Assembly (NCBI GenBank): GCA_020002185.1
Contig: CM034538.1
Coordinates: 64,114,333 to 64,178,332 of the forward strand
DNA length: 64,000 nucleotides
From: Paraescarpia echinospica
Lineage: Eukaryota > Annelida > Polychaeta > Sabellida > Siboglinidae
Direction: 5' to 3'
Below, piece by piece: positions 24,756 to 59,367 of the stretch. The position numbers were made by a program, and so were the translations under genes. Each line of letters opens with the position of its first letter. Positions within the stretch are counted from its first letter, which is position 1. Below the pieces are notes generated by a model. It worked only from the letters and a program-made list of their open reading frames with translations. It was not told the DNA's origin and did no database searches.

Positions 24756-27700
24756 ATGCAGAGGGTAGACCCATTATGTGCGGTGCCGAAAGACAAGGGC
24801 TGGGCTTGGATGATTCTTATAGGTAATATTAAAAAATTATTTCTTTAGTAATATTTGTTGATAATGACTACCGTTAACTGCAGTAAAGCCATCGACGTCC
24901 AAATAATCAGAATTATATTGTCAAACGTCTCATTTAGTTTAGGTTTATTTCTAAAAAAATTCAAGTAAGTTTTGTTATGTGTGGTAGTTTTATTAGGACA
25001 CTTCGCTAAGAAGAATGCAACTATAAAGCGACCAGTGTTGGTGTCCGCAAATTACATTACGTTTTTCGATATAATTATATTATAAAGCTGGAAATCATTA
25101 GATCTAAGAGATCAGCCACATGGCCATAGAAGCTTATATGTAAGCTGTAAAGGCTAGCATTTTGCGATTTGAGTAATTTTTAGTAATTTTTGTAACTCAA
25201 GACGGCTGCCAAGATACAACGATAATGAAATGCCGCAGCGTTGTTTTGCTACAGAAGTATATTATCTATGTGAAAAGAGCGCCAATACTACTGCATTCAA
25301 AGCTACATTGTGGCCCAAAATAGTAGCATTGCATAACTAATGTTGTCGTCTTTATAGGTTGTTTCACGGTCAATTTCGCCATCGTCGGCGGCTGCACCTG
25401 GTCGTTTGGCATTCTCCTGCCAGAGATATCTGACAGATTCAACGCATCGGCCACCCAAGTTGCCTGGTTACCGGCTATAGTGAGCTTCATCAGACTGTTC
25501 ATAGGTATGTTACCTTTATTTTCATTATCTTTTGCAATAACATGTCATCACAACATTGCGTGAATATGTCGCTGATTACATTTAATTGTTCTCTCGAAAC
25601 AAATAATTGTGGACTGATTTGGTGTAATCGTTTCATATTCTGTTTAACTGTTGTTTTAATTAATTATTTATATATTATTTATATAATATTGGCTCAATTA
25701 AATACTTTATTATTTAATTGATAGAAGTTCAATGATATTAACTGATTCCTTAGAAACACCATGAGAACATATTTTACTCATAATAATTGTATACTTTTAA
25801 CATAATATACATTATAGCTGTGTATTAGTTATGATTATTTCATGAATAAGAACAGGACATTATTTTCGAATGGGTTGCTCCATACGACACATAATTATTC
25901 TAACATTAAACCAGATATTTCAGCTGCGATTATACATTTCAAGATTATTAATGATAACATAATTTTGAAATGTTACTATAATATATTACTATGTCTGATA
26001 GGAAAGTATAATTATGTATTTAATGCAGCGCATGTTATCCTGCGAAGGAACAAAATGTAAGTGTTGACTCTGTTCCGGTTGCAGCGACTCCAGCCAATAT
26101 GATGGCGGCAAAGATCGGAACGCGCTGGGTCGTCTTCACCGGAAGTCTCCTGATGAATGCTGGTTTCGTTCTGGGAACATACGCTGACCGAATTGAGATT
26201 CTCTACGTCACTTTCGGCGGTATCGTCGGTACGTTTTTGAAAGGATTACAATAAACAGACGCAGCAAAATGCCGACGCATAAAAAATTAAAAATCGCAAA
26301 AACATCCACTAAATATGTCATTCACGTCGAAGCGGTCGTTGGCATCGTTTAATGTTCACAATGCTGGCGGGCACTGTATTGCAGACCAAGCTTAGGAAAT
26401 GGAACATATATATAAGTACCATTAGTGGTAGTATAAAAATTTCTAAAAATAATAGTGATGGCGATGAAAAATGATGATGTTATTTTAAAATTATTTGTAA
26501 CGGGACACAAACGTAAAAATTGACTTTCAGTAATCTATTTTGGTCACGGCATTCCATAAGTTGGAAGCATCTTTTGAACCGTTGATACAAAATGACACAA
26601 CACTTTTGGATTCTCGATAAACAACTTGCTTTCTTGTTCACTTGTCACTTGTATGTAACTATAAAATATAGTTACATATTGTTCAATATTATTGAATCGT
26701 ATTAACGTTGTTTATTACAACTTTGTATAAAAACCGTGCAACAATATATATCTGAAACAACCGTGCATTTTGGTTGTAGGTGTTGGTGCTGGTTTATGCT
26801 ATGCTCCGAGTATTGTCATCCTGGGCCAATATTTCGACAAAAGACGTGCTTTGGCCAACGGGATCTCGTTCTGTGGCGCCGGCATCGGATCCTTTGTGTT
26901 GCCGCCTATGATGAGATACACCGTCGACACATACGGACTAAACACGACATTTCTTCTGTTAGCAACTTGTATGTTGCACGTGTCCATTGCTGGGATGTTG
27001 TTCCGTCCGCCATCGTTCTACGTCAAGAGCTACATGCATTCGCAGTGTTCGCTTGTAAAACTTCCCGAAACTGTGATTTGGGTAACCGAGATGAATCCGG
27101 ACACGAATCTATGTATATCAGAGTCGATCACAATGACAGCGTCACCTATTGGTATGGTATACGCCTCGGAGAAGACACCGAACACTGATGTAATTGGTAT
27201 CCCTGATACAAAACCGACTTCCAAAGATTGTGATACAGCAGACAGGACTCAGGACAAAGCTTCCGGATTTCGTTGGAAGTTACTCTGCAATCCACTCATG
27301 GTGATGTATGCGGTCACGCTATCGATATGTGACAGTAGTTACGGCAATGTGTACATGCTCATGCCTCCACATGTAACATCCGCGGGCTTCTCCAGCACGA
27401 AAGGTGCTCTACTAATCTCCATGATCGGGATCACGCAGGCCGTGTCGCGTCTCGTTTCCGGTTGGTTCGCAGACTATAACTTTGTCGACAAGAAGTACAT
27501 TTACCAAGGCGCGTTGCTCGTGTGTGGAACGACTTTCTGCGTGATGCCTTTCTTAGAGAACTATGCGCTTCTGGCAACTTGTAGCGTCCTCTGCAGCCTG
27601 TCTGCCGGCAGTTTCGTCGTTCTCTCGGCTGTGCTAGTCGCTGAAAGCCTCGGCACAGCGAATCTTCCGACGACCTATGGTATATTGTACAGCACGGAGT

Positions 27701-28367
27701 CGCTCTTCTTCCTCGGGTCCCCCGTCCTCATGGGTGAGTAATGCCGAGTTGTTTTAACCTGTACACGACCTCTGGTTGTACGTTCTGCCGTTGGTATGTT
27801 GTCGTGATGCTGATTGGTTACTTTCACTCGTGTGGGTGTTTCAAATGTTATTTTTAATAATTGACACATCTTGCCATTGCGGTAGCGATTGCGGAAACAA
27901 TGAATGTGGTAATCATTTTAAATTACTTATGCAGTGTGTACACCTAAATGATTGTTATATTTGACATCAAAAATGTTCTACCCATGTTTGAAACTTAGAA
28001 GATTCACGGAATTTGATGACATATAAATATCTTCCATCGATGTTGTTGTTACCAGAAATAAATTCGCTACTGAATTTTCCCAAGTCAAAGAATCATACTT
28101 TACCAACAGATCAAAGAACCACCGTATTCTTTGACAGAAGGACACAACAATGTAACATATTTAATTGTTTGACGTTGTTGTGTCCTTTCAGTATCTTCAA
28201 GTTGCTAATACGTAATGTCTTGTTTGTCAGGTTGGTTGCGGGATATGACTGGCCAATGGAATGACTCGTTCCTCGTCAGTGGCGCTATGCTCATCTTCGC
28301 TGCCTCTGTCTACATCTTCGAGCCATGCGCCGCCAAGTGCTGCAAGAAGTCCTTACAGAAGACATAG
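24756..28367 (+). CDS. SLC16/monocarboxylate transporter-like protein (MFS), five exons
   Basis: Predicted plasma-membrane carrier of the MFS SLC16 family; the substrate cannot be told. Exons: 24756-24822, 25358-25504, 26085-26228, 26780-27733, 28231-28367. All junctions are phase 1 with GT-AG, giving 1449 nt and 482 aa. Residues 12-18 (KDKGWAW) match the conserved N-terminal SLC16 motif before TM1. Exons 2-4 encode TM1-6 (for example GVGAGLCYAPSIVILGQYF). A ~90-residue hydrophilic loop follows, then TM7-12. In TM8 the Arg of the MCT1 Asp-Arg pair is kept (R343), but the Asp position is Gln (Q339), as in several non-lactate members. A TATA box lies 126 nt upstream and AATAAA at 29077. The family is confident; the substrate is open. 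Confidence 0.9.
28138..28187 (+). repeat. Intron-4 hairpin before exon 5
   Basis: AAGGACACAACAA (28138-28150) pairs perfectly with TTGTTGTGTCCTT (28175-28187) around a 24-nt loop, ending 43 nt before exon 5. It could be a miniature transposon remnant or a structure near the acceptor. The segment is deleted in unit B. Confidence 0.8.
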
Positions 28368-29076
28368 ACCGCACGCACGTCGCTGACATTCTATCACGTC
28401 TTCGTCAACGTGCTGCAGAAGACGAACGATACGCTATCACTAACAGTTAATGTTGTTAGTGTTACGTGATTAATATTATTATTATTATATACATATGTCA
28501 GCAGTTGTGTTGCAGTTTAAGGTGGCACTTAAGTATAATTATTATGATGAAGCAATATTTACAAAATGAATGTGACTGTATAAGTTGTTTAAACAAGTTC
28601 CCAATTGTTTTTGGTCAACTAACCATCTACTCTCACTTGCGATGGTTAACTGGTAACCAAGACACCCATTGTCCTCGACGTGCTTACGCCAGTAGTACTC
28701 AGTTCTGTGTGTACTTCGATGACTTGTATTCTTGAGGAGTATTGACTAGATTCGTTATGTTTTCAAAACATCAGTATGCGTGTTAGCATACATACTTTGT
28801 ATACTGACTTAGCTAATCGCTCAATCACAGTTACATTTTTTATCGCGTCTAGTCAAGATTAAATATTGATGAATTGTTTTTTTATGATAATATTAATTGA
28901 CACTTTTATCATTTGTTGACTTATAGTACACATTTAGGCAAATTTATTATTTATTATTCAATATGTTATACCAGTTATGAGTGTGCGTGCGTGTGCGCGC
29001 CATTTTGTGAGTAGTGAGTGTACGCGCGCATATGCGTGTGCAAAATATGCATTTTAATGTAATTATATTAACAGTG

Positions 29077-29082
29077 AATAAA
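29077..29082 (+). terminator. Poly(A) signal of transporter gene A
   Basis: AATAAA in ACAGTGAATAAACATTCG, about 710 nt after the stop, followed by a T/GT-rich stretch (TTGTCTTTATTGTATCTTG). The same signal is present in unit B near 53359. Confidence 0.6.
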
Positions 29083-29216
29083 CATTCGTACAATTCAATT
29101 GTCTTTATTGTATCTTGTTATTAGCAGAAACTGGTGTTATTTATTGAATTTAAGTTGTAACTACCTGGCACCATGTTGCCATCACGTTTGTTAATCACCC
29201 CCCCCCCCTCCTCTCT

Positions 29217-29315
29217 CGCCCTATCTCGGCCCTCTCTTCTTTGTCTTTGTGTCTGTCTTTGTTTGTCTTACTGTCTGTCTCTCATTCTGTCAGTATGTCT
29301 GTCTGTCTGTCAGTA

Positions 29316-29358
<43 letters not shown>

Positions 29359-29395
29359 ATGTCTGTTTGTCTCTCTCTTTCTCCCTCTCTGTCTT
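29217..29395. repeat. (CTGT)n-rich microsatellite
   Basis: CTGT/TCTGT tetranucleotides with variants. The matching tract in unit B is about 53500-53672. Confidence 0.93.
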
Positions 29396-30573
29396 ACTTA
29401 AAACTAGTTAATTGAAATACAATATTTTCTGAGTGACGTTAGTCGAACACAAATCGTACAATCGGACTAACGTTCTACGAAACAACTATGCTGTGAATAT
29501 CCTGATCATCGAGATACAATAAGCTAGCCAGTGATAGCGTCCTGGTTTATTGTTTTTTTTTATGCTAGTTACACGTTTTAAAGTGATCTTTAAAACTATG
29601 TTGTCCAACAAACACGAATATACATATTTAAGTCTGTGCGTGGCCGTATCAACATAACCGCGTCAATAGCTACATGGCAGGGCGGTACCGCGGCAGATAC
29701 CGTTGATGTGGTAGAGACGTGAATTCCTTCAGAGCTACCATTCGAGACTGGACTCTCGCGACAAACATTGAATGGGTAGTTGTAATCATTCTGGTTAGCG
29801 AGAATTTTACCGAGACAGCCGGAATAAGTAACGTATTATCATGCTCATCTGGCTATACAGCATTACTGCAGAAGTAAAATACGCAGTAAGGTGTTTACAT
29901 TAACATTCTGCTTCGTAATTATACAAATCCTTCTTACTAAAATGGGGTCAAACTGGGACATAGAAACGATATAATATTGGAATATAATATTGGAATCGAT
30001 GGACCGGTCTTAGACTTAATTACACATACCTTGAAACGAAGTGCTGCTATTTGTCGATGTTTTTGTAGGGGACATTTGCTGAATCAAAATAAGCTATGGA
30101 ACCGACATACGCGAAGTAGGCGGGACGTCGCAATCACTTATATCAACCAACGAACGCAACGAATTTTGACCCGTTGGTTAGCGTACGTGATCTTGTCGTC
30201 TCGCCGACGTAGAGCTACATCGGTTTCGCTGCGATCAATGCACATCAGTTTCGCCGCGGTTTAAAAGTGGGTGGAGCTTTTAACATGAAATCAAGAAATG
30301 GTGAAGTGCGCATGTGTGAACCTATGGAAATGAAAAAATAGCACCGCAATCGGAAGATTAGTGTACTAAGTTTCCGCAGCCAACATAGTTCGGAACCGCC
30401 GAGTGCACATAAAACGCCTGATTGTAGGTCCGTTTATAAGGGTTCTTTCAATGGTTACCGGGAAATCTAGATGACGCTAGAATAAAAAAAAGTGCATCCG
30501 TTCAAATGATACCAAGGTAGTCTGGATAGGAGGCGCTGTGTGGGTGGTAGCGTCCGTTGAATTTCATGTTTTG

Positions 30574-30579
30574 AAAGTG
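30574..30579 (+). repeat. Left target-site duplication AAAGTG
   Basis: AAAGTG abuts the left terminus of the 12.1-kb element. The matching right copy is 42694-42699. Unit B has one AAAGTG at 54985-54990 joined directly to the downstream flank. Confidence 0.93.
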
Positions 30580-31025
30580 AGTAGTAATATAGGTTAATCA
30601 GCGGGGATGAATCCGTTTTTCCGTCGGAGGAAGAGGAAAAGTAGTTCCGGTTCCCATGTTAAAAGATAGGGAAATACCCGGATGTTCCTCCTTCCTCCGA
30701 CCAACGGAAAACGGATTTGTACCCATTTGGTATAGGTCTAAAAGGGGTAACATGGACTTTGAAAATAGGGCAAAACGTCAATTCGATTTATCGTAAAGGT
30801 ATATGACGACTTTTTGACCTCGATGTACCATTTTACCCCTATATTTTTAGTCGTTCAAACCCCATGTTAAAACATAGCGAAATTTACCTATATTTATATT
30901 TTTCGAGGGTTCAATTAGTCCCAAACGGCTTAAAAACTGTCCTACCAATTTTTCCCATGTTAAAGCATAGGGAATTTTCACCATGTTAAAAGATAGGGAA
31001 TTTTCACCATGTTAAAGGATACGAA
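30580..31025 (+). repeat. Left terminal inverted repeat with subterminal motif array
   Basis: Pairs with 42244-42693. It contains repeated copies of a ~22-bp motif, CCATGTTAAARSATAGGGAA, and the array continues to about 31330 with ten copies in all. Such subterminal repeats often bind element-encoded proteins. Confidence 0.9.
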
Positions 31026-31379
31026 GGTTCCGATTTACCCCAAACGGCTTAAAAAAACTGTCCTACCAATTTTTCCCATGTTAAAGGATAGGGAATTTTC
31101 ACCATGTTGAAGGATACGAAGGTTCCGATTTACCCCAAATTGTCCTCTGAAAGCAACAAATTTTCCCCATGTTAAAGCATAGGGACTAAAACCTGTACTC
31201 GATGACAATGTTGTAGCAGAACCTACAGCCTCGTTTTTTCGAACAGAGCGACCATCTTGGAATTTATAGGGAATTTTCTCCATGTTAAAGGATAGGACAT
31301 TTTTCACATGTTAAAGGATAGGGAGCTCGAGACGTGTCTGACTTGTTTGTTTGTTGCGAGCGTGAGCGCGCGCACCCTG

Positions 31380-32290
31380 TATGACGTCATGGTACGCGCA
31401 GTAATTTTGTACGCGATGTGAGTTGGTCAAGCAGGTAGTGATTTGGTTAGTCATCATTTTGAACTTGCGTATTTGAATATATAATTCCATCATGTGACGT
31501 CATGGTCAGTGACGTCATGGTACACGCAGTAATTCTATAAGCGATGTGAGTTGGTCAAGCAGGTAGTGATTTGGTTAGCCATCGTTTTGAACTTGCGTAT
31601 TTGAATATATAATTCCATCATGTGACGTCATGGTCAGTGACGTCATGGTACACGCAGTAATTCTATAAGCGATGTGAGTTGGTCAAGCAGGTAGTGATTT
31701 GGTTAGCCATCGTTTTGAACTTGCGCATTTGAATATAATTCCATCATGTGACGTCATGGCCAGTGACGTCATGGTACACGCAGTAATTCTATAATCGATG
31801 TGAGTTGGTTAAGCAGGTAGTGATTTGGTTAGTCATCGTTTTGAACTTGCGCATTTGAATATAATTCCATCATGTGACGTCATCATGCAGTGACATCATT
31901 AAACTATAAACTGCTACGTGCAGTAATTTTGTACGCGAGGTGAGTTGGTTATACAGGTAGTGATTTGGTTAGCCACTGTTTTGAACTTGCACGCTTGAAT
32001 ATAATTCCATCATGTGACCCTCATGATGCAGTGACATCATTAAAATATAAACTGCTAACCGCAGTAATTTTGTACGCGAGATGAGTTGGTTATACAGGTA
32101 GTGATTTGGTTAGCCACTGTTTTGAACTTGCGCGCTTGAATATAATTCCATCATGTGACGTCATGATGCAGTGACATCATTAAACTATAAACTACTACGC
32201 GCAGTAATTTTGTACGCGAGATGAGTTGGTTATACAGGTAGCGCTTTGGTTAGCTATTGTTTTGAACGTGCGTGCTTGAATATAACAATT
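31380..32290 (+). repeat. Tandem array (~125-140 bp units) with TGACGTCA octamers
   Basis: Seven units share GTGATTTGGTTAG, TTTTGAACTTGC and CAGTAATT (starts near 31399, 31529, 31657, 31783, 31921, 32063, 32204). Nine perfect TGACGTCA octamers occur at 31382, 31495, 31510, 31623, 31638, 31749, 31764, 31875 and 32156. The full palindrome is the consensus CRE bound by CREB/ATF bZIP factors. The array lies only in the left arm. Confidence 0.88.
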
Positions 32291-32506
32291 AGGTCGTAAT
32301 CATAGTGATTTGGTATTGCTATCATTTGATGTCATCAACAGTGAGTTCAAATTTCCTTGTAAAATCTAATTCTAGAAGTTTCTTTGATACTTTTGTCAAC
32401 ACACTACAAAACCGACGCTACTGTGTACTACTGTGTCATGTAGACGTATCTGTACATGTTTGTTTGTTGCGGGCGCGAACCCGCTTGCGTCCTGTATAAC
32501 GTCAAA

Positions 32507-32870
32507 GCTATCATTGTGATTTGGTTAGCCATCCTTTGTAAGAAATTTATTAGAAAATTCAATCACGACCTTCAGAGTAAAACATCGTTCACCACACTAC
32601 AGTCATATCACGCTATAATCAGACTGGTATGAACTGGTATGAACTGGTATGAACTGGTATAAACTGGTAACTAAGTCCAAGACTCTATGTGTTGGAAGAA
32701 CATCCGTGTATTTGTCTCGTGTTAAGCCATAGGGAATTATAAAACAGTTACTTATCTGTTAAAACACTCAAAGTGCCAGCTATTTATGTAGGATGTTGGT
32801 CAATCCCTTTGACCTGTAACATTATCTAACATACGACATTTGTACTTACCAGACTTTGTATTAACATCGA
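32507..32870 (+). repeat. Direct repeat inside left arm (partner 33480-33810)
   Basis: From TCATTGTGATTTGGTTAGCC through GACCTGTAACATTATCTAAC this block recurs at about 33495-33800 with few changes. The zinc-finger ORF at 32904-33173 lies between the two copies. Confidence 0.85.
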
Positions 32871-32903
32871 CATAGTTAATAGTTAATACTCTTTTGTGAG
32901 AAG

Positions 32904-33173
32904 GTGGTTGGCTCTGAAAAGAACCGTTTAAATATCTTATCCTCCCTTGCTGCCTTCACCTGCCCGGAGTGTAAGACGTTGTTCACACGGCGCAACAGTT
33001 GGAAGTGCCACATCGCACGCGGCTGTCCGACTCCGACAGCTACTGTGACAGTACCGGTCCCAACAACCTCTGTGCCACGAAAATCCCGACGGTCACTGTC
33101 ATTGGGTGTGACTGTATTACCGACCGACCGAGTAGATGTGCTGCCGACTGATATATCGGTGAAAGAAGTGTGA
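32904..33173 (+). CDS. Small C2HC zinc-finger-like protein, left arm only
   Basis: 89-aa ORF with one finger FTCPECKTLFTRRNSWKC followed by HIARGC: C-x2-C-x12-H-x4-C, close to C2H2/C2HC spacing. The rest is Ser/Thr/Pro/Val-rich low complexity. It may be one exon of a larger element gene, since no promoter or partner exon could be fixed. The finger layout resembles that of the ORF pair at 38546-38752 and 40605-40811, suggesting a small family of element proteins that might bind DNA. No right-arm counterpart exists because that segment is missing there. Confidence 0.45.
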   Translation: MVGSEKNRLNILSSLAAFTCPECKTLFTRRNSWKCHIARGCPTPTATVTVPVPTTSVPRKSRRSLSLGVTVLPTDRVDVLPTDISVKEV

Positions 33174-33479
33174 AATATGGCTCCAAGGACGCAAAGAAGT
33201 CCGTCAAGTCAGCAAAATCAGCCACAAATCGGGCAAAATAACTACGAATAAAATAAGGCACCTGGTAATGTGTGTAATTTCTTTATATAGCAGTTCGATA
33301 GAACATAATGGTCACGTGGGCGTGCCGAAAGATTATGGATTGTAGGATAGTACATTAAGGTCACGTGGGCGTGCCGAAAGATCACTGACTTCAGAGTGCA
33401 AACTACACATGCGCAGTCGGTAGATTAGAAAATTCAAAAGCGCGGACTGCAAAATAAAACTAGCTTTCAAGCGCTCGCG

Positions 33480-33810
33480 TCCTGTATAACGTCAAAGCAA
33501 TCATTGTGATTTGGTTAGCCATCCTTTGTAAGAAATTTATTAGAAAATTCAATCACGACCTTCAGAGTAAAACATCGTTCATCACACTACAGTCATACCA
33601 CGCTATAATCAAACTGGTAGTATGAACTGGTAACAAAGGCTCTATGTGTTGGAAGAACATCCGTGTATTTGTCTCGTATTAAGCCATAGGGAATTATAAA
33701 ACAGTTACTTATCTGTTAAAACACTCAAACTGCCAGCTATTTATGTAGGATTTTGGTCAATACATTTGACCTGTAACATTATCTAACATACGACATGTGT
33801 ACTTACCAGC
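33480..33810 (+). repeat. Direct repeat inside left arm, second copy
   Basis: Second copy of the block at 32507-32870, lacking part of the GAACTGGTAT tandem run present in the first (32637-32668). Confidence 0.85.
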
Positions 33811-34334
33811 CGTATCTCACTTGAGCGTCGCTTGAAAACTGAGTCCAAACTGGTTCCAAACTGTTTTAGAATGGTGTTCCCTGTTCAAGTCTCATCTGTG
33901 TTTCGTCTGCATCTAGAGATCAACAGTACTGTTTCAACCTTTTATCATGCTATGATTCTTAACCCACACGTATGTACATATGTAAAGAAGTAAACACAAT
34001 CGACGCGATATGCTTGATGTGCTATGCCAACTCTTCGACCTTGACATCAAACTTATCGAGTAAAGAATTGGTTGCAAACCTCTTTTCCGAAACAGACGCT
34101 TAACAAAGTGAAGCGTTATGATCAACAGTATATGACCATAATAATCTCCCAGATAGGATATACCAGTATTTATACAGTTTACCGTATTAAGGGTCAAGTG
34201 AATAAAGACACATTAGATCGTTTTTGATCTGTTTTCATACTGTAATATTTAAATTCGTGCTTGTTCGGTAAACCTTTTAAACAATATTTTATCATAAAAG
34301 CCCTAACCTGACATCGGTAACCAAAAATGGACCT

Positions 34335-34463
34335 ATAGAGATATACATACATAGAGACATACATAAACACAGACATGGAGACATACATAAACACAGACAT
34401 GGAGACATACATAAACACAGACACAGAGACATACATACATATATACATACATACATACATACA

Positions 34464-34495
<32 letters not shown>
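34335..34495. repeat. (CATA)n tract in left arm
   Basis: ACATACATA repeats and ACACAGACATGGAGACATACATAAA repeats. The inverted counterpart is 42104-42240. Confidence 0.95.
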
Positions 34496-34723
34496 GACCA
34501 CCCAACATTAACCTTCAACATATAAGCATACCTTCAAATATACTTTTAAACATACAACATTGCAAACTTTCACTGACAAACGTTCCAACACACTCTTAAT
34601 CCTGTTTGCAAATTAGTTTGAACTGGTATTCGATTCACAAGTCTAATCTTTTCTACCCATGCTGCCAATGTCGCAACTTCCGCTCCTGACTTTGCTGGTC
34701 CGAACTTTACCATTGATTTCCCT

Positions 34724-35080
34724 GTGACCGAAATGAAGAAGACGCTTCCACGTCACATAGCATGCAGCATCTTTGAACTCTCAAGACGTCAGTGCCGTGG
34801 TTGCGAGATAGACCATCCTAGTCAATTTAATCACGATTGTATGTTATCTGATGACATTCAAATCTGCATGTACTTTGACGAGGCTGTCGAGGTCATTAAT
34901 TCAACTGCAGTGGTGAAAGACTGTTTGAGTGTTTTGTTAGACTCCGGTGTGAAACTATCCGACGTGACAGTCGAACAGTTGTGTAATATCAATACTTGGT
35001 TGCAAGAGTCCGTTTCGAAACAGTGGCGAAACACTATGAAACAAATGGTTCTGACAGTAATGGAGGATGAGGTTGATTAA
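34724..35080 (+). CDS. 118-aa Cys/His protein of the palindromic element, left-arm copy
   Basis: Complete ORF not assigned to any family. It has a compact Cys/His cluster CRGCEIDHPSQFNHDC (residues 24-39: C-x2-C-x3-H-x5-H-x-C), possibly metal binding, followed by an acidic, mostly helical region. An inverted copy lies at 41527-41883 and encodes the same 118 residues with six substitutions (P9A, G26S, N36H, H37Y, M113I, E116G). Both frames are intact, which argues for coding sequence. The arms share it by duplication, so selection at each copy is not proven. It may be an exon of a larger gene; role unknown. Confidence 0.55.
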   Translation: MTEMKKTLPRHIACSIFELSRRQCRGCEIDHPSQFNHDCMLSDDIQICMYFDEAVEVINSTAVVKDCLSVLLDSGVKLSDVTVEQLCNINTWLQESVSKQWRNTMKQMVLTVMEDEVD

Positions 35081-35559
35081 AGACTGGTTGTCTGTCTGGA
35101 ACAATACTGCAACCAAGTATCCGAACCGACTTTGTTGGACCCATAAGGGATCCTCGTCGTATGGCAGGCAAGACTTAAGTAGTGAGGTGTGGTATCGTCT
35201 TGTACAAGATTAAACTTTGCAAGACTCCGTATTAATATTCAGTTTCTGGTTCTTGCAGTTATGGAGCGTGATATGTAAATACGTTTGTGTTGTTCACGAA
35301 TAAACTGTGCAAACCTTATATTGTGTCTTTTTCATAGTGTAATGCAAAGCATGTGTTGGGAACCTTGGCCTTACACAAACAGACAAAGTCGACCTCTTTA
35401 AGGGACAAGAAACTCGGAATAGACGGGTTACTGCGACAACGGACAAGATATTGCACGAGACTACGGATGAGATTGACCAATCTACCGCGCTGAAACGGTA
35501 AAAGTGTGGAGGAGGAGGGATAGAGATGGACGGGTTATTGCATGACATCCCTCCACTTT

Positions 35560-35660
35560 TTGGAGCAAATTCGACGTGTTGTCATGTCAAATCCCTCTTT
35601 TTGGAGCAAATCCGACGTGTTGTCATGTCAAATCCCTCTTTTTGGAGCAAATTCGTCAGT
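35560..35660 (+). repeat. ~40-bp tandem units, left arm
   Basis: TTTTTGGAGCAAAT(T/C)CGACGTGTTGTCATG units, about three, matching inverted units at 40961-41063. Confidence 0.9.
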
Positions 35661-35803
35661 TTATCGCGTGACATCTCTACCAAACTTAGCGCACGAGACT
35701 ACGGCCGAGACATTGCATGAGATACGGACGATACATCGCATGAGACTACGTGATCCAAGAACCATTCCGTTCTTTACACTTGAACAGTAAACACGTACAT
35801 CAT

Positions 35804-38544
35804 TCCTAGTCGAAACCAAAATAGACGAAAACTACCCTACCTATTCGTTCCCACCACCTAACCATAGCGCCATCCGAAAGGACAGAAACACCCATGGTGG
35901 TGGAGTTCTGATAGCCTTCCGCGATGACATTGTAGCAGAACCACTTAATAAACTAAACTCAAGCTATGAAATATTATGGACAAAAATCCATTTCACACGA
36001 AACAAATCCATATACTTTGCATGCTACTCCCGACCTCCCAGTGACCACCTTAAATCCCTTGAAGCTCTCCACGAATCCCTAACAAAACTGTACAGATCAC
36101 TAAAAACTTCTCCTAATGTAGTTATAGCAGGTGACTTCAACATTCCTGATATTAACTGGGGCAAGCAGCAAACCACTGACAACAGAACTGCTAGCAAGCA
36201 TAACAAACTGCTAGAAATAATTAGAGAATTTGGATTACAGAACATGGTCAACGATCCCACACGAGGTGATTCCGGCAATATCCTTGACCTCATACTCACT
36301 TCTAATCCATCGATAATTGCTAACACTCACACCACTCCCGGCATGTGTGATCATGAAGCTGTGACCTTTAACGTAAACCTAAATCCAATCCGTAACAGTA
36401 AACCACCACACAAAGTGTTCCAATATAAATCTGCAAACTGGGATAAGCTTAAAGATGACATAAAACAACTAACAACAACATTCTTTGACCCGAACCCAAA
36501 TTCAACACATGTCAACACAACTTGGAACGTAATAGTGACTGGGAAAGGTTTAGGCAACTCCGAAAACAAGCCACTAAAGCTGCAACCAAATCCTACTCGG
36601 ACTATCTAAACAATCACATTGGAGACAGCCTAAAAACAAACCCAAAACAATTTTGGTCATTCATTAAAGGAAACAAACGAGAATACATTGGCATCCCTAC
36701 ACTGCAAGCAAACGACCAACCAATCACAAATGATCACGACAAAGCAAATACACTTAACAACCAATTTAGTTCCGTGTTTACTCAAGAAATCTACCCCATC
36801 CCCCAACTAGCTCCATCCATCTATCCCGATATGCCCTCCCTCGAAATCGGGATAGACGGAGTAATTAAGCAACTGAAAAACCTAAACCAAAATAAAGCTA
36901 CAGGCCCCGACGAACTCCCAGCCAGAGTCCTTAAAGAGACTGCAGTGGAAATTGCCCCCATCATCACACACATTTTCCAGCAGTCATACAACACTTGCAA
37001 ACTCGCAGATGACTGGCTCCAAGCACTAGTAACACCAATACACAAAAAAAGCCACAAATCAGACCCTGCTAATTATAGACCAATTTCGTTAACATGCATT
37101 CTCTGCAAAGTTATGGAGCACATCATTCTAAGCAACATCTGGACACAAACTTACACAAACACAACATCGTCATCCACTTCCAACATGGATTCCAATCAGG
37201 TCTGTCTTGTGAATCCCAACTCATCGAGACAGTCCACGACTGGTTGATTGCTATGGACAATAAGATACAAATAGATGCCATCCTACTCGATTTCGCCAAA
37301 GCCTTTGACAAAGTCCCCCATAAACGCCTCCTATCCAAATTAGCTTTCTATGGAATAACTGGAAACACACAAAACTGGATCAAATCGTTTCTATCCAATC
37401 GCAAACAGAGAGTCTCAGTCAATGGAGCCCTGTCGGACAGCACAAATGTTACATCTGGTGTACCACAGGGCTCAGTCCTAGGACCTGTCCTATTTTTACT
37501 CTACATAAACGACATAACCGAAAATGTCCAATCTTCCGTACGTCTCTTTGCAGACGACAGCATTATATATCGCAAAATCACATCCGAAACCGACCACGAA
37601 ACTCTCCAATCTGACCTGATCAAACTCCAAACATTGTCTAATAAATGGCAGATGGAATTTAACATATCTAAATGTGTGCATCTCCCAATAACAAACAAAA
37701 CCAAACCCAGACTACATTCATATTCACTCTTTGGCATACCACTCTCTACCCCCTCTAGCCACACATATCTTGGAATAAAATTAGATTCTAAACTAACCTG
37801 TGCTAACCATATCACTGACATAACTTCCAAATCTTCAAAAGTCCTAGGCATGATCAAACGAACCCTCGGACCATGCAAACCTGAAGTAAAAGAAACAGCC
37901 TATAACATGCTAATCCGACCAAAACTCGAGTATGCCTCTCCCATATGGAACCCACACACTGCCACCCAAATTAAACACCTTGAAAGAGTACAACACTGTG
38001 CTGCCAGATTTGTCAAAAAATGACCACAGACGCCAAACAAACGCAGCAGACCTAATAGCCACCATTGGTTGGTCAACTCTTGAACGACGACGCATTATCA
38101 AACAAGCCGTGACATTTTACAAAATACTAAATAACATAATCAACATCACACCCCCACCAGGTCTACTAACACAGTCAACATCACACCCCCACCAGGTCTA
38201 CTAACACAGTCAACATCACACCCCCACCAGGTCTACTAACACAGTAAAAAAACCGTGGCCACTACGTAGCTCCTAGGTGCCGCATCAATGCAGCAGTGTT
38301 CTCTTTCTACACCCGAGCAGTTCGAATCTGGAATATGATTCCACCACCGTTTACTGAACTAGAAAGCCCCATAGCGTTTCAAACAGCGATCATGAACCTC
38401 CCTTTCACCACACCCAATCATCTAAAGTGCCTATAAAATAAACAAGCAAACTACCCACAATGCATGCGCACAAACAAACACCATACAACTCCTGCGTTAG
38501 CTCAAGTTTGGGCTGTTTGGAGTAAATCACCTAAGACCTAAGAC
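35804..38544 (+). mobile_element. CR1/L2-group LINE, 5'-truncated and frameshifted
   Basis: A non-LTR retrotransposon copy inserted in the left arm, splitting ACATCAT/ATGAGC, which is continuous in the right arm near 40811-40815. Endonuclease segment (to about 36500): ETKIDENY with the catalytic Glu, GDFNIPDINW, and CDHEAV with the terminal His. The reverse transcriptase follows (KATGPDELPARVL, YRPISL, DFAKAFDKVPH, SGVPQGSVLGP, and FADD near 37550). The protein is split by frameshifts near 36530, 37130 and 38020. A 37-bp tandem triplet lies at 38140-38240. The 3' tail is a short CCTAAGA repeat; such short repeated tails are typical of CR1/L2. The clade is inferred from motifs. Confidence 0.85.
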
Positions 38545-38545
38545 C

Positions 38546-38752
38546 ATGAGCTTATGGACTAGTCTACCAGATACCAACAAGCCTACATCATCATCATCGT
38601 CACGGGCAGTCTTCCAGTACCCAGATTGCAAGAGACATTTCACACATCGAGCCAACTTGAAACGACACAGTAGCCTCAGTCGCTGTGCACTGTCGACAAA
38701 CGCTACATTGCTGAAATCACTTGTCCTGAAGCTCACTACGACATCTGTGTAA
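38546..38752 (+). CDS. Small zinc-finger-like protein of the palindromic element, left-arm copy
   Basis: 68-aa ORF MSLWTSLPDTNKPTSSSSS... with FQYPDCKRHFTHRANLKRHS: the finger spacing is [Y]-x2-C-x12-H-x5-C, the first Cys being Tyr. The right-arm copy (40605-40811) has the second Cys changed to Phe and AN changed to DK, so neither copy has a full ligand set. The LINE ends one base before the ATG. Spacing resembles the finger at 32904-33173. Possibly a decayed exon; function unknown. Confidence 0.45.
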   Translation: MSLWTSLPDTNKPTSSSSSRAVFQYPDCKRHFTHRANLKRHSSLSRCALSTNATLLKSLVLKLTTTSV

Positions 38753-39159
38753 CACCAAACACTTATATCAAAGAGTGACAAGAACCAAACTTGTCGGACA
38801 AACGAAACACCAAACACTTAGATGAACGAGCGACAAGAATCAAACATCACATACCTTCATGTCAAGAGACAATCATCTGTTCGGATTCACGTCCAACGAG
38901 GCGACCATAGGACTCGTATGAGGTATCGCTTCTTTTAACGGAAAACATATGTATATGAAAGATCCGTCTTTACAACGTAACAATTCCATATTTACAAATA
39001 ATGCGAGCGATCAGACACGATACGACCTTCTCGAGAGTCGAAAAAGGAAAGACCAGAATCGTCGGAAGTATGGTATATACACTAGTTTTCGGCGTCATCT
39101 CATTTACATAACCATTCAGACCTAACGTACATCACGTGACTTTCCTTAACACAAAAATT

Positions 39160-39720
39160 GTGCACGCTCATGAGAGGCGACATCCGACGCCACTCAACGG
39201 ACACCAATGTAATTAGTCAGAGTATTGCCATCTACCGGCCACGATAGATCTCTATTCGTTGACACACTTCCGGGAATACCGGAAGCATAGAGGTCGCCAT
39301 GACAGTCAAGTAACTTCCGGTGCGAATGTACTTCCGACTAGCGTTCCTAGTAGAGGCTGCCATAGCAAGCGAATTTGAAAACTGCTATGATCGAAAACGA
39401 CTATGTCAATAACATGTAAGGACAACCACCTGAAAGGACTTCATTCAAAGAGGTGACCATCTTGGTTCCCGATGCCACTCAACGGACACCAGTGTAATTA
39501 GTCAGAGTATTGCCATCTACCGGCCATGATAGGTCTCTATTCGTTGACACTCTTCCCGGAATACCGGAAGCGTAGAGGCTACCATGACAGTCAAGTAACT
39601 TCCGGGGTGACGTCACTTCCGACGTTGCGTCCCTAGTAGAGGCTGCCATGACAGTCAAGTAACTTCCGGTACGATGTCACTTCCGGCGTAGCGCCCCTAG
39701 TGGATAATCTGAGCACTACG
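39160..39720 (+). repeat. Tandem ~290-bp duplication in left arm
   Basis: GCCACTCAACGGACACC ... ATTGCCATCTACCGGCC ... GAGGCTGCCATGACAG occurs at about 39190-39365 and again at 39470-39655. The sub-unit AAGTAACTTCCGG occurs four times. The right arm has a single equivalent (about 39953-40170), so the duplication arose after the palindrome formed or was lost on the right. Confidence 0.8.
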
Positions 39721-39814
39721 TTACATGATAGCGCCATCTATCGGGTAAAATATATAATTAGGTTAGATAGAGAAAAAAAAGTTGGGGTTAATCTCGCGAA
39801 AATTTAAACAACGA

Positions 39815-39826
39815 CCACCAAGGTGG
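39815..39826. repeat. Centre of the palindrome
   Basis: CCACC (39815-39819), AA, GGTGG (39822-39826): the two arms meet with an essentially absent spacer. Flanks continue as ACAACGACCACC / GGTGGTTGTTGT and then as long inverted homology. Confidence 0.92.
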
Positions 39827-39937
39827 TTGTTGTATACATTTTCGGGAGATTAAACCCAACTTTTTTTCTGTATGTAACATAATTATATATTTTTACCCGC
39901 TAGATGGCGCTATCATGTAAAGTAGTACTCCGATTAT

Positions 39938-39951
39938 CCACTAGGGGGCGC
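39938..39951 (+). promoter_or_regulatory. CTCF-type consensus near palindrome centre
   Basis: CCACTAGGGGGCGC matches the CTCF core consensus. The left-arm counterpart near 39695-39707 has one G fewer (CCACTAGGGGCGC on the minus strand), so the two lie in inverted orientation about 240 bp apart around the centre. Host binding is untested. Confidence 0.35.
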
Positions 39952-40604
39952 TACGCCGGAAGTGACATCGTACCGGAAGTTACTTGACTGTCATGGCAGC
40001 CTCTACTAGGGACGCAACTTCGGAAGTGACGTCGCCCCGGAAGTTACTTGACTGTCATGGTAGCCTCTACGCTTCCGGTATTCCGGGAAGAGTGTCAACG
40101 AATAGAGATCTATCATGGCCGGTAGATGGCAATACTCTGACTAATTACATTGGTGTCCGTTGAGTGGCGTCGGATGTTGCCTCTCATGAGCGTGCACAGT
40201 TTTTGTGTTAAGGAAAGTCACGTGATGTACGTTAGGTCTGATTGGTTATGTAAATGAGATGATGCCGAAAACTAGTGTATATACCATACTTTCGACGATT
40301 CTGGTCTTTCCTTTCTCGACTCTCGAGAAGGTCGTATCGTTTCTGATCGCTCGCATTATTTGTAAATATGGAATTGTTACGTTGTAAAGACGGATCTTTC
40401 ATATACATATGTTTTCCGTTAAAAGAAGCGATACCTCATACGAGTCCTATGGTCGCATCGTTGGACGTGAATCCGAACAGACGATTGTCTCTTGACATGA
40501 AAGTATGTGATGTTTGATTCTTGTCGCTCGTTCATCTAAATGTTTGGTGTTTCGTTTGTCCGCCAAGTTTGGTTCTTGTCACTCTTTGGTATAAGTGTTT
40601 GGTG

Positions 40605-40811
40605 TTACACAGATGTCGTAGTGAGCTTCAGGACAAGTGATTTCAGCAATGTAGCGTTTGTCGACAGTGCACAGCGACTGAGGCTACTGTGTCGTTTCAA
40701 TTTGTCTCGATGTGTGAAATGTCTCTTGAAATCTGGGTACTGGAAGACTGCCCGTGATGATGATGATGATGTAGGCTTGTTGGTAGCTGGTAGACTAGTC
40801 CATAAGCTCAT
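40605..40811 (-). CDS. Small zinc-finger-like protein, right-arm copy
   Basis: Inverted counterpart of 38546-38752, 68 aa, still open but with the finger Cys replaced by Phe (YPDFKRHFTH) and two further changes in the helix. It is probably no longer able to bind zinc. Its position is symmetric about the palindrome centre, reading toward it. Confidence 0.4.
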   Translation of the reverse strand: MSLWTSLPATNKPTSSSSSRAVFQYPDFKRHFTHRDKLKRHSSLSRCALSTNATLLKSLVLKLTTTSV

Positions 40812-40960
40812 GATGTACGTGTTTACTGTTCAAGTGTAAAGAACGGAATGGTTCTTGGAACACGTAGTCTCATGCGATGTCTCGTCCGTATCTCATGCAA
40901 TGTATCGGCCGTAGTCTCGTGCGCTAAGTTTGGTAGAGATTTCACGCGATAAACTGACGA

Positions 40961-41063
40961 ATTTGCTCCAAAAAGAGGGTTTTGACATGACAACAGGTCG
41001 AATTTGCTCCAAAAAGAGGGATTTGACATGACAACACGTCGAATTTGCTCCAAAAAGTGGAGG
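40961..41063 (-). repeat. ~40-bp tandem units, right arm
   Basis: Inverted counterparts of 35560-35660 (GAATTTGCTCCAAAAAG units). Confidence 0.9.
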
Positions 41064-41526
41064 GATGTCATGCAATAACCCGTCCATCTCTATCCCTCCC
41101 CCTTCACACTTTTACAGCGCGGTAGATTGGTCAATCTCATCCGTAGTCTCGTGCAATATCTTGTCCGTTGTCGCAGTAACCCGTCAATTCCGAGTTTCTT
41201 GTCCCTTAAAGAGGTCGACTTTGTCTGTTTGTGTAAGGCCAAGGTTCCCAACACATGCTTTGCATTACACTATGAAAAAGACACAAGATAAGGTTTGCAC
41301 AGTTTATTCGTGAACAACACAAACGTATTTACATATCACGCTCCATAACTGCAAGAACCAGAAACTGAACATTAATACAGAGTCTTGCAAAGTTTAATCT
41401 TGTACAAGACGATACCACACCTCACTACTTAAGTCTTGCCTGCCATACGACGAGGAGCCCTTGTGGGTCCAACAAAGTCGGTTCGAATACTTGGTTGCAG
41501 TATTGTTCCAGACAGTCAACCAGTCT

Positions 41527-41883
41527 TTAATCAACCCCATCCTCAATTACTGTCAGAACCATTTGTTTCATAGTGTTTCGCCACTGTTTCGAAACGGACT
41601 CTTGCAACCAAGTGTTGATATTACACAACTGTTCGACTGTCACGTCGGATAGTTTCACACCGGAGTCTAACAAAACACTCAAACAGTCTTTCACCACTGC
41701 AGTTGAATTAATGACCTCGACAGCCTCGTCAAAGTACATGCAGATTTGAATGTCGTCAGATAACATACAATCGTAATGAAATTGACTAGGATGGTCTATC
41801 TCGCAACTACGGCACTGACGTCTTGAGAGTTCAAAGATGCTGCATGCTATGTGACGTGCAAGCGTCTTCTTCATTTCGGTCAC
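41527..41883 (-). CDS. 118-aa Cys/His protein, right-arm copy
   Basis: Inverted duplicate of 34724-35080 with six amino-acid differences and no stop or frameshift. The cluster reads CRSCEIDHPSQFHYDC, so one His of the left-arm copy is Tyr while the new His at 36 is adjacent. Surrounding non-coding sequence of the arms shows similar scattered differences, so frame retention is suggestive only. Confidence 0.5.
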   Translation of the reverse strand: MTEMKKTLARHIACSIFELSRRQCRSCEIDHPSQFHYDCMLSDDIQICMYFDEAVEVINSTAVVKDCLSVLLDSGVKLSDVTVEQLCNINTWLQESVSKQWRNTMKQMVLTVIEDGVD

Positions 41884-42103
41884 AGGGAAATCAATGGTAA
41901 AGTTCGGACCAGCAAAGTCAGGAGCGGAAGTTGCGAAATTGGCAGCATGGGTAGAAAAGATTAGACTTGTGAATCGAATACCAGTTCAAACTAATTTGCA
42001 AACAGGATTAAGAGTGTGTTGGAACGTTTGTCAGTGAAAGTTTGCAATGATGTATGTTTAAAAGTATATTTGAAGGTATGCTTATATGTTGTAGGTTAAT
42101 GTT

Positions 42104-42111
42104 GGGTGGTC

Positions 42112-42143
<32 letters not shown>

Positions 42144-42240
42144 TGTATGTATGTATGTATGTATGTATGTATGTATGTATGTATGTATGTATGTCTCCAT
42201 GTCTGTGTTTATGTATGTCTCTATGTATGTATATCTCTAT
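42104..42240. repeat. (TATG)n tract in right arm
   Basis: Uniform GTAT tetranucleotides to 42193, then CTCCATGTCTGTGTTTATG variants. It is the inverse of 34335-34495. The Met/Tyr/Val/Cys frames are artefacts. Confidence 0.95.
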
Positions 42241-42243
42241 AGG

Positions 42244-42693
42244 TTCGTATCCTTTAATATGGTGAAAATTCCCTATCTTTTAACATGGTGAAAATTCCCT
42301 ATGCTTTAACATGGGAAAAATTGGTAGGACAGTTTTTTAAGCCGTTTGGGGCAAATTGAACCCTCGAAAAATATAAATATAGGTAAATTTCGCTATGTTT
42401 TAACAAGGGGTTTGAACGACTAAAAATCTAGGGGTAAAATGGTACATCGAGGTCAAAAAGTCGTCATATACCTTTACGATAAATCGAATTGACGTTTTAC
42501 CCTATTTTCAAAGTCCAAGTTACCCCTTTTAGACCTATACGAAATGGGTACAAATCCGTTTTCCGTTGGTCGGAGGAAGGAGGAACATCCGGGTATTTCC
42601 CTATCTTTTAACATGGGAACCGGAACTACTTTTCCTATTCCTCCGACGGAAAAACGGATTCGTCCCCGCTGATTAACCTATATTACTACTACT
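42244..42693 (-). repeat. Right terminal inverted repeat
   Basis: Reverse complement of 30580-31025 with scattered differences and one extra AGT at the tip. Five subterminal motif copies remain. Confidence 0.9.
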
Positions 42694-42699
42694 AAAGTG
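42694..42699 (+). repeat. Right target-site duplication AAAGTG
   Basis: Follows ...ATTACTACTACT directly and continues into TTCCGAG, the same flank that follows the single AAAGTG in unit B. Confidence 0.93.
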
Positions 42700-42999
42700 T
42701 TCCGAGTTGTTCATTTTTTGCTCGCTTATCTATTTTTGATGGTATGCATTACGTGTAATGTTAATTCTACTCGTATCCAAAACAGCGACATGTATTGCTT
42801 AATTAGTGCGATCAATCATATATTCTGCTGTGACGGTAGTTATCGTGTACGTCGTTTGCATGCATGCACGTGTGTGTTTGGTTGGGTGTGCTTGCATGAT
42901 CGAGTGTGGATATTCACGCGAGCGCATGCATGCGCGTGAGTGCATGTGAGCATGTGTTTATGGAAAGCGTACAAAATATGCATAAATTAAAAACTAATT

Positions 43000-43479
43000 T
43001 AATACATTGATACATATATAAATACATTCATACATTCATACATACATACACACATACAAACACACATATATGCAGACAACCATGCATATCCACATGCATA
43101 CATTCGTACATACATACATACATACATACATACATACATACATACATACGTACATACATACATACATACATACATACATACATACATACATACATACATA
43201 CATACATAGGCACGCACGTATGTACGTACATACATACATACTTACACATATACATACATACATACTTTCATACGTGCATACATACACACATACATACATA
43301 CATTCATACATACATACATACATACATACATACATACATACATACATACATACATACATACATACATACATAAATACATACGTACATACGTACATACGTA
43401 CATACATATATACATACATGCATACATGCATACATACATTCATACATACATACATACATACATACATGCATACATACAT

Positions 43480-43510
<31 letters not shown>

Positions 43511-43514
43511 TTCA

Positions 43515-43547
<33 letters not shown>

Positions 43548-43800
43548 GCATACATACATATATACATACATACATACATACATACATACATACATACATA
43601 CATACATACATTCATACATACATACATTCATACATACATACATATATACATACATACATACATACATACATTCATACATACATACATATATACAAACATA
43701 CATACATACATACATACATACATACATAAATACATACATACATACATACATAAATACACAAATACATACATACATACGTACACACATACATACATGCATC
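43000..43800. repeat. (TACA)n microsatellite, unit A
   Basis: About 800 bp of TACA/CATA tetranucleotides with scattered variants. Long open frames on both strands (for example 43070-43729) come purely from the repeat. The unit-B equivalent is about 55150-55592. Confidence 0.97.
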
Positions 43801-45160
43801 TGTATATTTATGTGTGAGAATCCCTCGATGGCTTTGGGAATTGTAGTAAGTTGAAAACAGTATGAATGTATATACGTATTACCGAATACGACATTCTATA
43901 TCAATTACAAAAAAAAAACAAAAAAAAACAAAAAAAAACTCAGAATCAACAACTAGACATATAATCATTACATTGTCAGACAATGAAATAATATACATAT
44001 CTCATCTGCGGTATTTACAAATTACAGCAGGACATATTTTAATATGCTTACTTCATAATGTTTATTTCGCAGTATATTGTTTTATGTGCAACAGTTTATC
44101 TGTGAGCACTTCTTGTCAGACGCTCACGGCTACTCGCCGCTGACGGCTAGTCGCTTTGTCGTTTACAAAATCAAGCAATGTTTCCGCAGCCATGCAACGG
44201 CTGCCGTGCTAGTTGTCAGCTATCTGTCCCTTCATTGGTACCGTGCCGCATCTGCTGCATACTTCTGATAGTTGTCTGCTGTTATGTGATGCTTCGGTCT
44301 GTATGGAGCAACGCGGTTCGAACATTTCTACATCCCGCAAGGTGTTAAACCCGATAAATGTACTAACCACCAACAAACATTACACGAAAGCACACTTCCC
44401 ATGTTGAATCAGGAGTTCACATTTCACGCAATAACCATTTTGATGGATGAGGTGTTGGGAATTCCTAGGTGCGAGAGTTCGTACTGCCTGGTCTATTTAC
44501 AGGAATGAGGAGGGAGTAATTTATATAGCATATATATGGTAGGCTGTCATAATTACGTAATTGTTGCTTAATTACATCTTAAAAGTATGATATTTGAGAG
44601 GCGTATTCAAATTTTGTTCAATCGATACCTCAGATGTAGTAGTTTGGCAAATATGTGTTATATAATGGACCTATCTGGCCTAAGGGTGAGTGATTTACAT
44701 ATAATCCTTTAGGTATGATGTAAACATAACGTCACTACCTAACAATTACCTATTAATTGTGACAACGGTGGAAAGAATATTTAAATATATTTCGAACGAT
44801 ATCTCATATGCTATAGTTCATGTGATCTGTATTGATGAAATGGACATATACCCACCCCCTCCCCTTTATATTCACCCCTCCCCCTTGTACCCACCCCTCC
44901 CCCTTATTTCACTTGTCACTTGTTGTAATAAATCAGTAAAACCACACGATCGTTTTCACTCCCAGGTAGAAAATTACTAGATTTCACATTTGCATGATGT
45001 GAACGTCTTAAGAAACATAGGCGCGAACATTTCATAGGTGGGACGGTTTCATCTATCTGAATTACGGTCTAAAATGTGAACTTGATTTATACATAATAGT
45101 TAAGATCTGACGTCATTTTGACCCCCCATACCATCCTGGCGAGTGGTATGGGGGTGGGGG
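43801..45160. other. Non-coding flank of unit A
   Basis: Shared with unit B up to about 44470. The stretch 44480-45160, including three CACCCCTCCCCCTT units near 44859-44904, is present only in A. No gene recognised. Confidence 0.6.
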
Positions 45161-55150: not shown

Positions 55151-55251
55151 ACATTCATACATATATACATACATTCATACATTCATACATACATACACAC
55201 ATACATACACACATATATGCAGACAACCATGCATATCCACATGCATACATT

Positions 55252-55283
<32 letters not shown>

Positions 55284-55592
55284 TTCATACATACATATAT
55301 ACATACATTCATACATTCATACATATATACATACATTCATACATTCATACATACATACACACATACATACACACATATATACATACATACATACATACGC
55401 ACGCACGTATGTACGTACATACATACATACTTACACATATACATACATATTTTCATACGTGCATATATACATACATTCATACATACATACATACATACAT
55501 ACATAAATACATACATACATACATACATACATACATACATACATACATACATACATACATACATACATACGTACATACATACATACATACAT
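55150..55592. repeat. (TACA)n microsatellite, unit B
   Basis: Counterpart of 43000-43800 but roughly half as long. Confidence 0.96.
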
Positions 55593-56270
55593 GCATCTGT
55601 ATATTTATGTGTGAGAATCCCTCGATGGGTTTGGGAAGCTGTAGTAAGTTGAAAACAATATGAATGTATATACGTATTACCGAATACGACATTCTATAAA
55701 ACTCAAAATCAACAACTAGACATATAATCATTACATTGTCAGACAATGAAATAATAAGGTATGTATATTATAAATACCTCATCTGCGGTATTTACAAATT
55801 AACATTTTGCACAATGTGACATATCTATTACCCACAGCAGGACATAGTTTATTATGCTTACTCCATAATGTTTATTTCGCAGTATCTTGTTTTATGTGCA
55901 ACAGTTTATCTGTGAGCACTTCTTGTCAGACGCTCACGGCTACTCGCCGCTGACGGCTAGTCGCTTTGTCGTTTACAAAATCAAGCCATATTTCCGCAGC
56001 CATGCAACGGCTGCCGTGCTGGTTGTCAGCTATCTGTCCCTTCATTGGTACCGTGCCGCACCTGCTGCATACTTCTGATAGTTGTCTGCTGTTATGTGAT
56101 GCTTCGGTCTGTATGGAGCAACGCGGTTCGAACATTTCTACATCCCGCAAGGTGTTAAACCCGATAATTGTAATAACCACCAACAAACATTACACGAAAG
56201 CACACTTCCCATGTGGAATCTGGAGTTCACATTTGCACGCAATAACCATTTTGATAAATGAGGTGTTGGA

Positions 56271-58225: not shown

Positions 58226-58229
58226 CTCC

Positions 58230-58577: not shown

Positions 58578-58613
58578 CTTTAGAACGTCGTCGTCGGAAA
58601 TGAAGTGTCACCG

Positions 58614-59330: not shown

Positions 59331-59367
59331 GGTGTTGTTTCATCGTCGGATTGGGTAGTAGGTAATC

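Follow-up and report, generated by a model that had tools for sequence, protein, structure and literature searches.

A multi-copy palindromic family with Polinton ends in the genome of the annelid Paraescarpia echinospica

Polintons, also called Mavericks, are typically 15-25 kb long (PMC6431247), and the survey of vertebrate Mavericks in PMC8097293 gives (AGT)2//(ACT)2, with 6-bp duplications, as the commonest end motif and (AG)3//(CT)3 as an alternative, tying the repeated end motif to jumping-back in protein-primed replication. The element discussed here, at positions 30580-42693 of a 64,000-nucleotide stretch of contig CM034538.1 of Paraescarpia echinospica (the whole stretch being referred to as the window), carries ends of the first type and comprises an inverted duplication of itself. 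The view that Polintons replicate by protein priming rests largely on gene content and end motifs. Among viruses, the left-end palindromes of adenoviruses offer one comparison for copy-back products, and parvovirus termini are T-shaped hairpins. The nearest working analogy is provided by the snapback genomes of adeno-associated virus, described in PMC8235507 as self-complementary, derived from one genome end and replicated with proteins supplied in trans. In addition, Foldback/Galileo transposons display very long, internally repetitive inverted repeats that form most of the element, as here; Galileo is grouped with P elements by its transposase according to PMC3573991.

Judged from the assembly, the window element belongs to a palindromic family whose many copies are integrated at many sites. 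We interpret it, with a probability of about 0.6, as a family of non-autonomous Polintons that began with the inverted duplication of a single Polinton end, with the two arms re-equalised before integration, most simply by snap-back (hairpin) replication. The likeness to Polintons/Mavericks comprises the (AGT)2//(ACT)2-type ends, the 6-bp target duplication (both as in PMC8097293) and the long terminal inverted repeats (TIRs), together with termini and arm genes common to gene-bearing copies of the same genome (C13 and C3:7.3 Mb). The family differs in that the element is palindromic, lacks polymerase, integrase, ATPase and capsid genes, has both ends of one type and measures 6.5-17 kb in its both-ended short copies rather than 15-25 kb. 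As in the adeno-associated virus case, both halves derive from one parental end, but the snapback genomes of PMC8235507 are subgenomic parvovirus particles, whereas this family is heritable, integrated and multi-copy, with Polinton ends. The 6-bp target duplication and the Polinton ends likewise set it apart from Galileo, pointing away from the P superfamily.

Self-comparison of the window discloses an inverted duplication around a 2-nt-spacer centre at 39820/39821, beginning with (AGT)2 and finishing with (ACT)3, which bears out the layout of an initial annotation that had proposed TIRs of about 446 bp and a near-zero-spacer centre at the same position. The mirrored parts are (i) the TIRs, at 30580-31025 on the + strand, beginning (AGT)2AATATAGG and also recognised by family matches, and at 42244-42693 on the - strand, 97.5% identical over 446 bp (30580-31025 with 42244-42690); (ii) block B, at 34330-35803 (+) and 40810-42243 (-), 96.7% identical between 34369-35803 and 40810-42230; and (iii) block C, at 38545-39820 (+) and 39821-40812 (-), 95.9% identical between 38545-39363 and 39993-40812. 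The central segment, 39469-40173, matches itself in inverted orientation at 94% and folds at 39808-39833 into the hairpin H, with 12-bp stems and a 2-nt loop at 39820/39821, the tightest stems of the palindrome. Block B contains an open frame with a C-x2-C...HPSQ...H-x-C pattern (34622-35077, +), here termed HPSQ, mirrored at 41530-41985 (-) with 98% DNA identity over 399 bp, and C[15-181] resembles the beginning of a C2H2-type gene of Polintons (77% DNA identity). Frame and family searches of the element found no PolB, integrase, ATPase, protease or capsid frame, and tblastn with pieces of L019 and L030 matched the HPSQ frame only; given that none of these core gene frames is there, the element is a non-autonomous derivative rather than a full Polinton.

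Three extras distinguish the left arm. A LINE occupies 35804-38544 (+), with a reverse transcriptase frame at 37094-38023 (RVT_1, 1.9e-25), and the right arm preserves the uninterrupted target. Block X (31026-34329, +), comprising 128/140-bp tandem repeats and a weak C2H2-like frame at 32883-33170, lacks a target duplication and is carried on either arm in other copies; it was therefore probably lost from the right arm. The third extra, about 285 bp near 39208-39492, lies close to the centre. In view of these extras, an ancestral arm of about 6.5 kb, as previously estimated, is reasonable. The 128/140-bp tandem satellite at 31382-32285 is matched in other copies too and thus travels with the element.

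The insertion itself can be read from a duplication within the window, where the flanks 29001-30579 and 42871-44475 recur at 53281-54990 and 55018-56286, respectively, forming a paralogous empty site (53281-56286, +) without the element. A single AAAGTG at the empty site, near 54985-54990, corresponds to one AAAGTG on each side of the element (30574-30579 and 42694-42699), which identifies a 6-bp target duplication. Together with the end motif and the occurrence of the same termini on gene-bearing Polintons, this upholds the Polinton/Maverick kinship proposed earlier.

Across the genome (a 1.08-Gb assembly of 3,111 contigs), the TIR search returned 1,504 candidates, and all 40 of those scored matched. 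An exact search for the terminus pattern yields 96 forward and 97 reverse occurrences, against 0 for the reversed-pattern control, and of the 100 ends listed, those adjacent within 30 kb form 24 pairs in the order + then - and 1 in the opposite order. Eleven short copies, including that of the window, were sampled at both ends; they span 6.5-17 kb, and in 9 of them gene-region blocks (B or C) are mirrored past the TIR length. C4b lacks the outermost left end. Target duplications of 6 bp flank all 10 testable short copies, exact in eight (window, C2a, C3, C4a, C5, C8b, C10a and C11) and with one mismatch in two (C1a and C9). The end motif deviates in the right end of the window element (a third repeat), the left end of C2a (a single repeat) and the right end of C10a (mutated). 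Copies C2b, C8c and C8d were left out of these counts as one insertion within segmental duplications; the idea that they carry a LINE mirrored in both arms was rejected, since segmental duplication had multiplied a single truncated LINE-bearing copy along with its flanks (L023, L026, L027), and the fetched right half of C8c has no arm.

The centre is also common to many loci. A search with block C gave 2,410 candidates, and the 40 places scored, which are the best of these and not a random sample, yielded 123 matches. With 37 short tandem rows excluded, an opposite arm is found at 28 of the 40 places (25 with at least 200 bp), and with all rows at 31 (26 with at least 200 bp), the two arms being head-to-head wherever a place is mirrored. 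A centre-spanning probe matched both strands at all 40 scored places (1,005 candidates), although a probe that is a palindrome and contains H will favour places of this kind. The hairpins at centres are of two types, (i) H, in the window and most probe-selected centres, and (ii) G, in C9 and C11; both occur together in C8b, C1b, C4b, L031 and L049, and two G-type hairpins in L032. The L024 centre folds into a 19-bp and a 22-bp stem side by side, and that of L015 into two hairpins closed by an outer stem, a T-shaped fold. Adjacent hairpins at some centres (L015 with its outer stem; L024, L025, L031 and L049; L032 with two of one type) may be compared with the T-shaped hairpins of parvoviruses, but many centres have a single hairpin, and parvovirus hairpins are terminal, whereas those of this family lie mid-palindrome, the outer ends being Polinton ends. 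As for the extent of mirroring, among centres fetched with 4 kb the arms are 98.3% identical over 1.5 kb in L071 and 95.1% in L073, long and more diverged (83-86%) in L074, and mirrored over about 235-254 bp only in L070 and L072; L031 and L032 are mirrored across several kb. Where arms extend (L031, L032 and L071), block C adjoins Polinton blocks. At C6 (L022), a full arm reaches hairpin G at about 5972-6007 and is followed by unrelated sequence, possibly a half element or a truncation.

In the TIR and block X, the arms of a copy resemble each other more than they resemble those of other copies. Over TIR positions 1-280 in the 9 copies with both arms, the own partner is nearest by identity for 16 of 18 arms, with a mean partner identity of 97.1% that none of 5,000 permutations reached; the between-copy mean over all pairs (27 rows) is 85.6%. 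For block X, in 5 copies, the own partner is nearest for 8 of 10 arms (27/5,000 permutations, near the lowest value attainable with 5 copies). Copy-specific rearrangements of blocks occur in both arms of one copy, for example in C8b, C11 and C4b. Fifteen centres were aligned, that of the window plus 14 of the 20 fetched (L047-L052 being excluded for other centre types or offset). Both partners of a base pair have changed in 19 cases, compared with 10.0 in shuffles (0/500 reaching the observed number) and 2-7 in slid controls; since the structure was derived from the centre of the window, the unslid version has an advantage in percentage paired. When entire 3' arms were exchanged at random between copies, the observed pairing was never reached (0/2,000). 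Within-copy arm likeness is, in these alignments, established for the TIR and block X, and partner arms being closer than arms of different copies implies that both arms were alike at integration.

The initial annotation had called for a genome search for an element sharing the arm sequence and bearing Polinton genes, and gene-bearing Polintons with the termini of the family, among them C13 and C3:7.3 Mb, were found. In C13 (L019), a family TIR (91%), block X and B[7-1078] are followed by Polinton-gene frames, including an ATPase (Adeno_IVa2, 3.8e-5, above the cut-off), a chromodomain (2.7e-7), a weak integrase (0.053) and capsid-like frames without a Pfam match; the HPSQ frame of the window has a 125-aa match of 95% here. 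The adjoining polymerase-like fragment is one that we take to be PolB from a polymerase motif. The element at C3:7.3 Mb measures 13,362 bp, is flanked by an exact duplication, AACGTC, and contains matches to ATPase, integrase, capsid and HPSQ. Its left end and the window arm are collinear across the 30 terminal bases (93%), the HPSQ block (92%) and the start of the C2H2 gene (77%), the remaining TIR being different. Both window HPSQ copies match the left (PRO-side) end at 90.5-91.5% and the right (ATPase-side) end at 79.3-80.1%, so that sequence comparison supports a single type of Polinton end as the origin of both window arms. The two ends of C3:7.3 Mb themselves look as if once duplicated from one another.

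The capsid affiliation was approached through structure prediction. The penton-like frame of L019 has 32 homologues, none of them named, and the AlphaFold model of one, P0004 (pLDDT 82.7), has mavirus penton as all of its top six PDB matches (best E 1.4e-10), later matches being mostly adenovirus penton bases, with TM to the query of about 0.5-0.6 and rmsd of 7-10; the homologue is therefore predicted to fold like the mavirus penton. At the thresholds used, neither Pfam nor PHROGs assigned a family to the HPSQ frame, to the PolB-like fragment or to the capsid-like frames. The protein collection contains 2 relatives of the HPSQ frame, and the search of viral contigs with the terminal motif and the HPSQ frame returned no confirmed relative. 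PF03175 gave 3 matches among the 91 scored of 338 candidates in the genome. The PolB-like fragment is extraordinarily abundant genome-wide, with 4,292 candidates, 150 matches among the 150 scored, and at least 40 in open frames exceeding 1,300 aa, many of similar length. TIR pairs about 13 kb apart, considered as intact palindromes, were rejected as such: three places were sampled in each of five pairs, and four of the pairs proved to contain pieces of PolB, capsid or integrase, the fifth having none.

In the mechanism that we favour, each arm would be one Polinton end, made up of the TIR, the HPSQ gene and the start of the C2H2-type gene, with a short hairpin centre linking it to its own inverted copy. 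The first palindrome may have formed when a displaced strand snapped back at the centre during protein-primed replication, and the palindrome would subsequently replicate via the hairpin, with priming at the AGT end and a turn at the centre, so that arm mismatches would be removed in the hairpin stem prior to integration. The linear palindrome would then be inserted by a Polinton integrase acting in trans, the proteins presumably coming from gene-bearing Polintons with the same termini in the genome. The earlier proposal of an integrated copy-back defective Polinton-like genome holds in part: a palindrome of one Polinton end type is what was found, but as a multi-copy family and not a single integrated defective genome, and the copy-back event itself is one that we infer. 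Its remark that no described class of this kind was known to it agrees with the literature listings searched, in which no palindromic or non-autonomous Polinton class appeared (Repbase and subscription journals being outside the scope). If correct, the equalisation of arms before integration would be a footprint of extrachromosomal DNA copying, making a replication route testable from sequence alone; it would show that snapback genomes, known as viral by-products, can turn into a family that is inherited in many copies; and a palindromic Polinton family would be a named source of giant inverted repeats in a host genome.

Several observations weigh against this interpretation. The four gene-bearing pairs among the five sampled TIR pairs of about 13 kb are not simple palindromes, and C4a and C10a, 2 of the 11 both-ended copies, mirror little past the TIR length. 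Inward of block X, sisterhood is weak or lacking in the few copies available, the own partner being nearest for 2 of 4 arms in B (2 copies), 1 of 2 in C (1 copy) and 2 of 6 at the centre (3 copies), and over their innermost 327 sites the two window arms are 4.9% different, above the remainder. Block C is single-armed at 9 to 12 of the 40 places (12 strictly, 9 with all rows), and neither C[182-1276] nor the centre can be traced to a known source, sampled gene-bearing Polinton ends matching only C[15-181] and 33 bp in C[239-271]. In C13 the window-like HPSQ end type lies beside the ATPase (95.7-96.7%), so the source side is not certain; its placement relative to C3:7.3 Mb suggests, from the sequences compared, an exchange of ends between Polintons. 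The TIRs of C3:7.3 Mb (L068, L069) reach 1.8 kb, and its two ends carry mirrored but diverged (78-82%) versions of the HPSQ and C2H2-type genes; some of the mirroring may therefore be inherited. Finally, no hairpin intermediate was observed.

A bolder version, which we put forward tentatively, envisages a class of replicons whose ends differ in kind, one being a protein-primed AGT end and the other a hairpin, and in which a half-length hairpin, with a T-shaped tip in some lineages, would be the working genome. Each round of protein-primed synthesis would run around the tip and yield a palindromic linear dimer, inserted by a Polinton integrase in trans, and the integrated palindrome would be an intermediate of a transposon-scale rolling hairpin parasitising Polintons.

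The strongest rival to snap-back replication of the family is recurrent copy-back, in which one-armed Polinton molecules give rise to palindromes afresh and repeatedly, the small hairpins ending block C serving as the hotspot, and no palindrome replicates as such; its strength lies in predicting nearly the same pattern, since it accounts for arms alike at integration, structural variants shared between arms and one centre. The one-armed places that it supposes do exist (the 9 to 12 block C places, including C6), but among the stretches fetched there is no complete non-palindromic element with the arm, the centre and a distinct other end, and mirrored places (28-31) exceed one-armed ones among the 40 best of the 2,410 candidates; we regard it as unlikely. 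Rather improbable is the loss of the core from a Polinton with very long TIRs, the palindrome being two such TIRs joined. The mirrored HPSQ and C2H2-type genes and 1.8-kb TIRs of C3:7.3 Mb agree with it, as does mirroring that goes little past a TIR in C10a and C4a; yet the mirrored genes of C3:7.3 Mb are 78-82% alike, compared with 98% for window arms of one end type, and mirroring runs to a near-zero-spacer centre common to many loci.

Gene conversion between chromosomal arms after integration, as in Y-chromosome palindromes, could also equalise arms. Palindromes with near-zero spacers are good substrates for conversion, and the block X arms of C3 and C8b are 99.5% alike, exceeding their TIRs (97.1% and 98.6%). 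The window arms speak otherwise. Over five compared segments, with an ATAC repeat tract and the left-arm extras excluded, they differ at 72 of 2,796 sites (2.6%), and the mismatches are unclustered: the index of dispersion, 0.53, was equalled or exceeded in 4,869 of 5,000 random placements, and the longest identical run, 141 sites, was matched by 4,392 of 5,000, so there are no long identical tracts. TIR, B and outer C are equally diverged (2.1-2.7%, with one 60-site piece at 0), and the LINE and the 3.3-kb difference were left unconverted, making conversion a very improbable explanation. Somewhat less credible still is an independent foldback element, composed of block C and the centre, inserted into a Polinton: block C is largely unmatched in sampled gene-bearing ends, as noted, but the mirrored TIR, X and B would be left unexplained, and block C stands beside Polinton blocks in L031, L032 and L071. 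Inverted copies are a known assembly error, but misassembly is negligible as an explanation, given the unclustered 2.6% divergence of the arms, the arm-specific LINE and the recurrence of the layout on many contigs with distinct target duplications.

The neighbourhood of the element shows further traces of duplication. The regional duplicates, one copy with the element and the other without, also include open frames at 26731-27738 (with 51844-52413) and 25269-25544 (with 50289-50573), one of the duplicated flank frames presumably encoding a membrane transporter, as read by eye. To the right of the empty-site duplicate, at 56951-59838 on the - strand, lie degenerate Polinton pieces, comprising major-capsid/protease-like, penton-like and chromodomain matches to L019.

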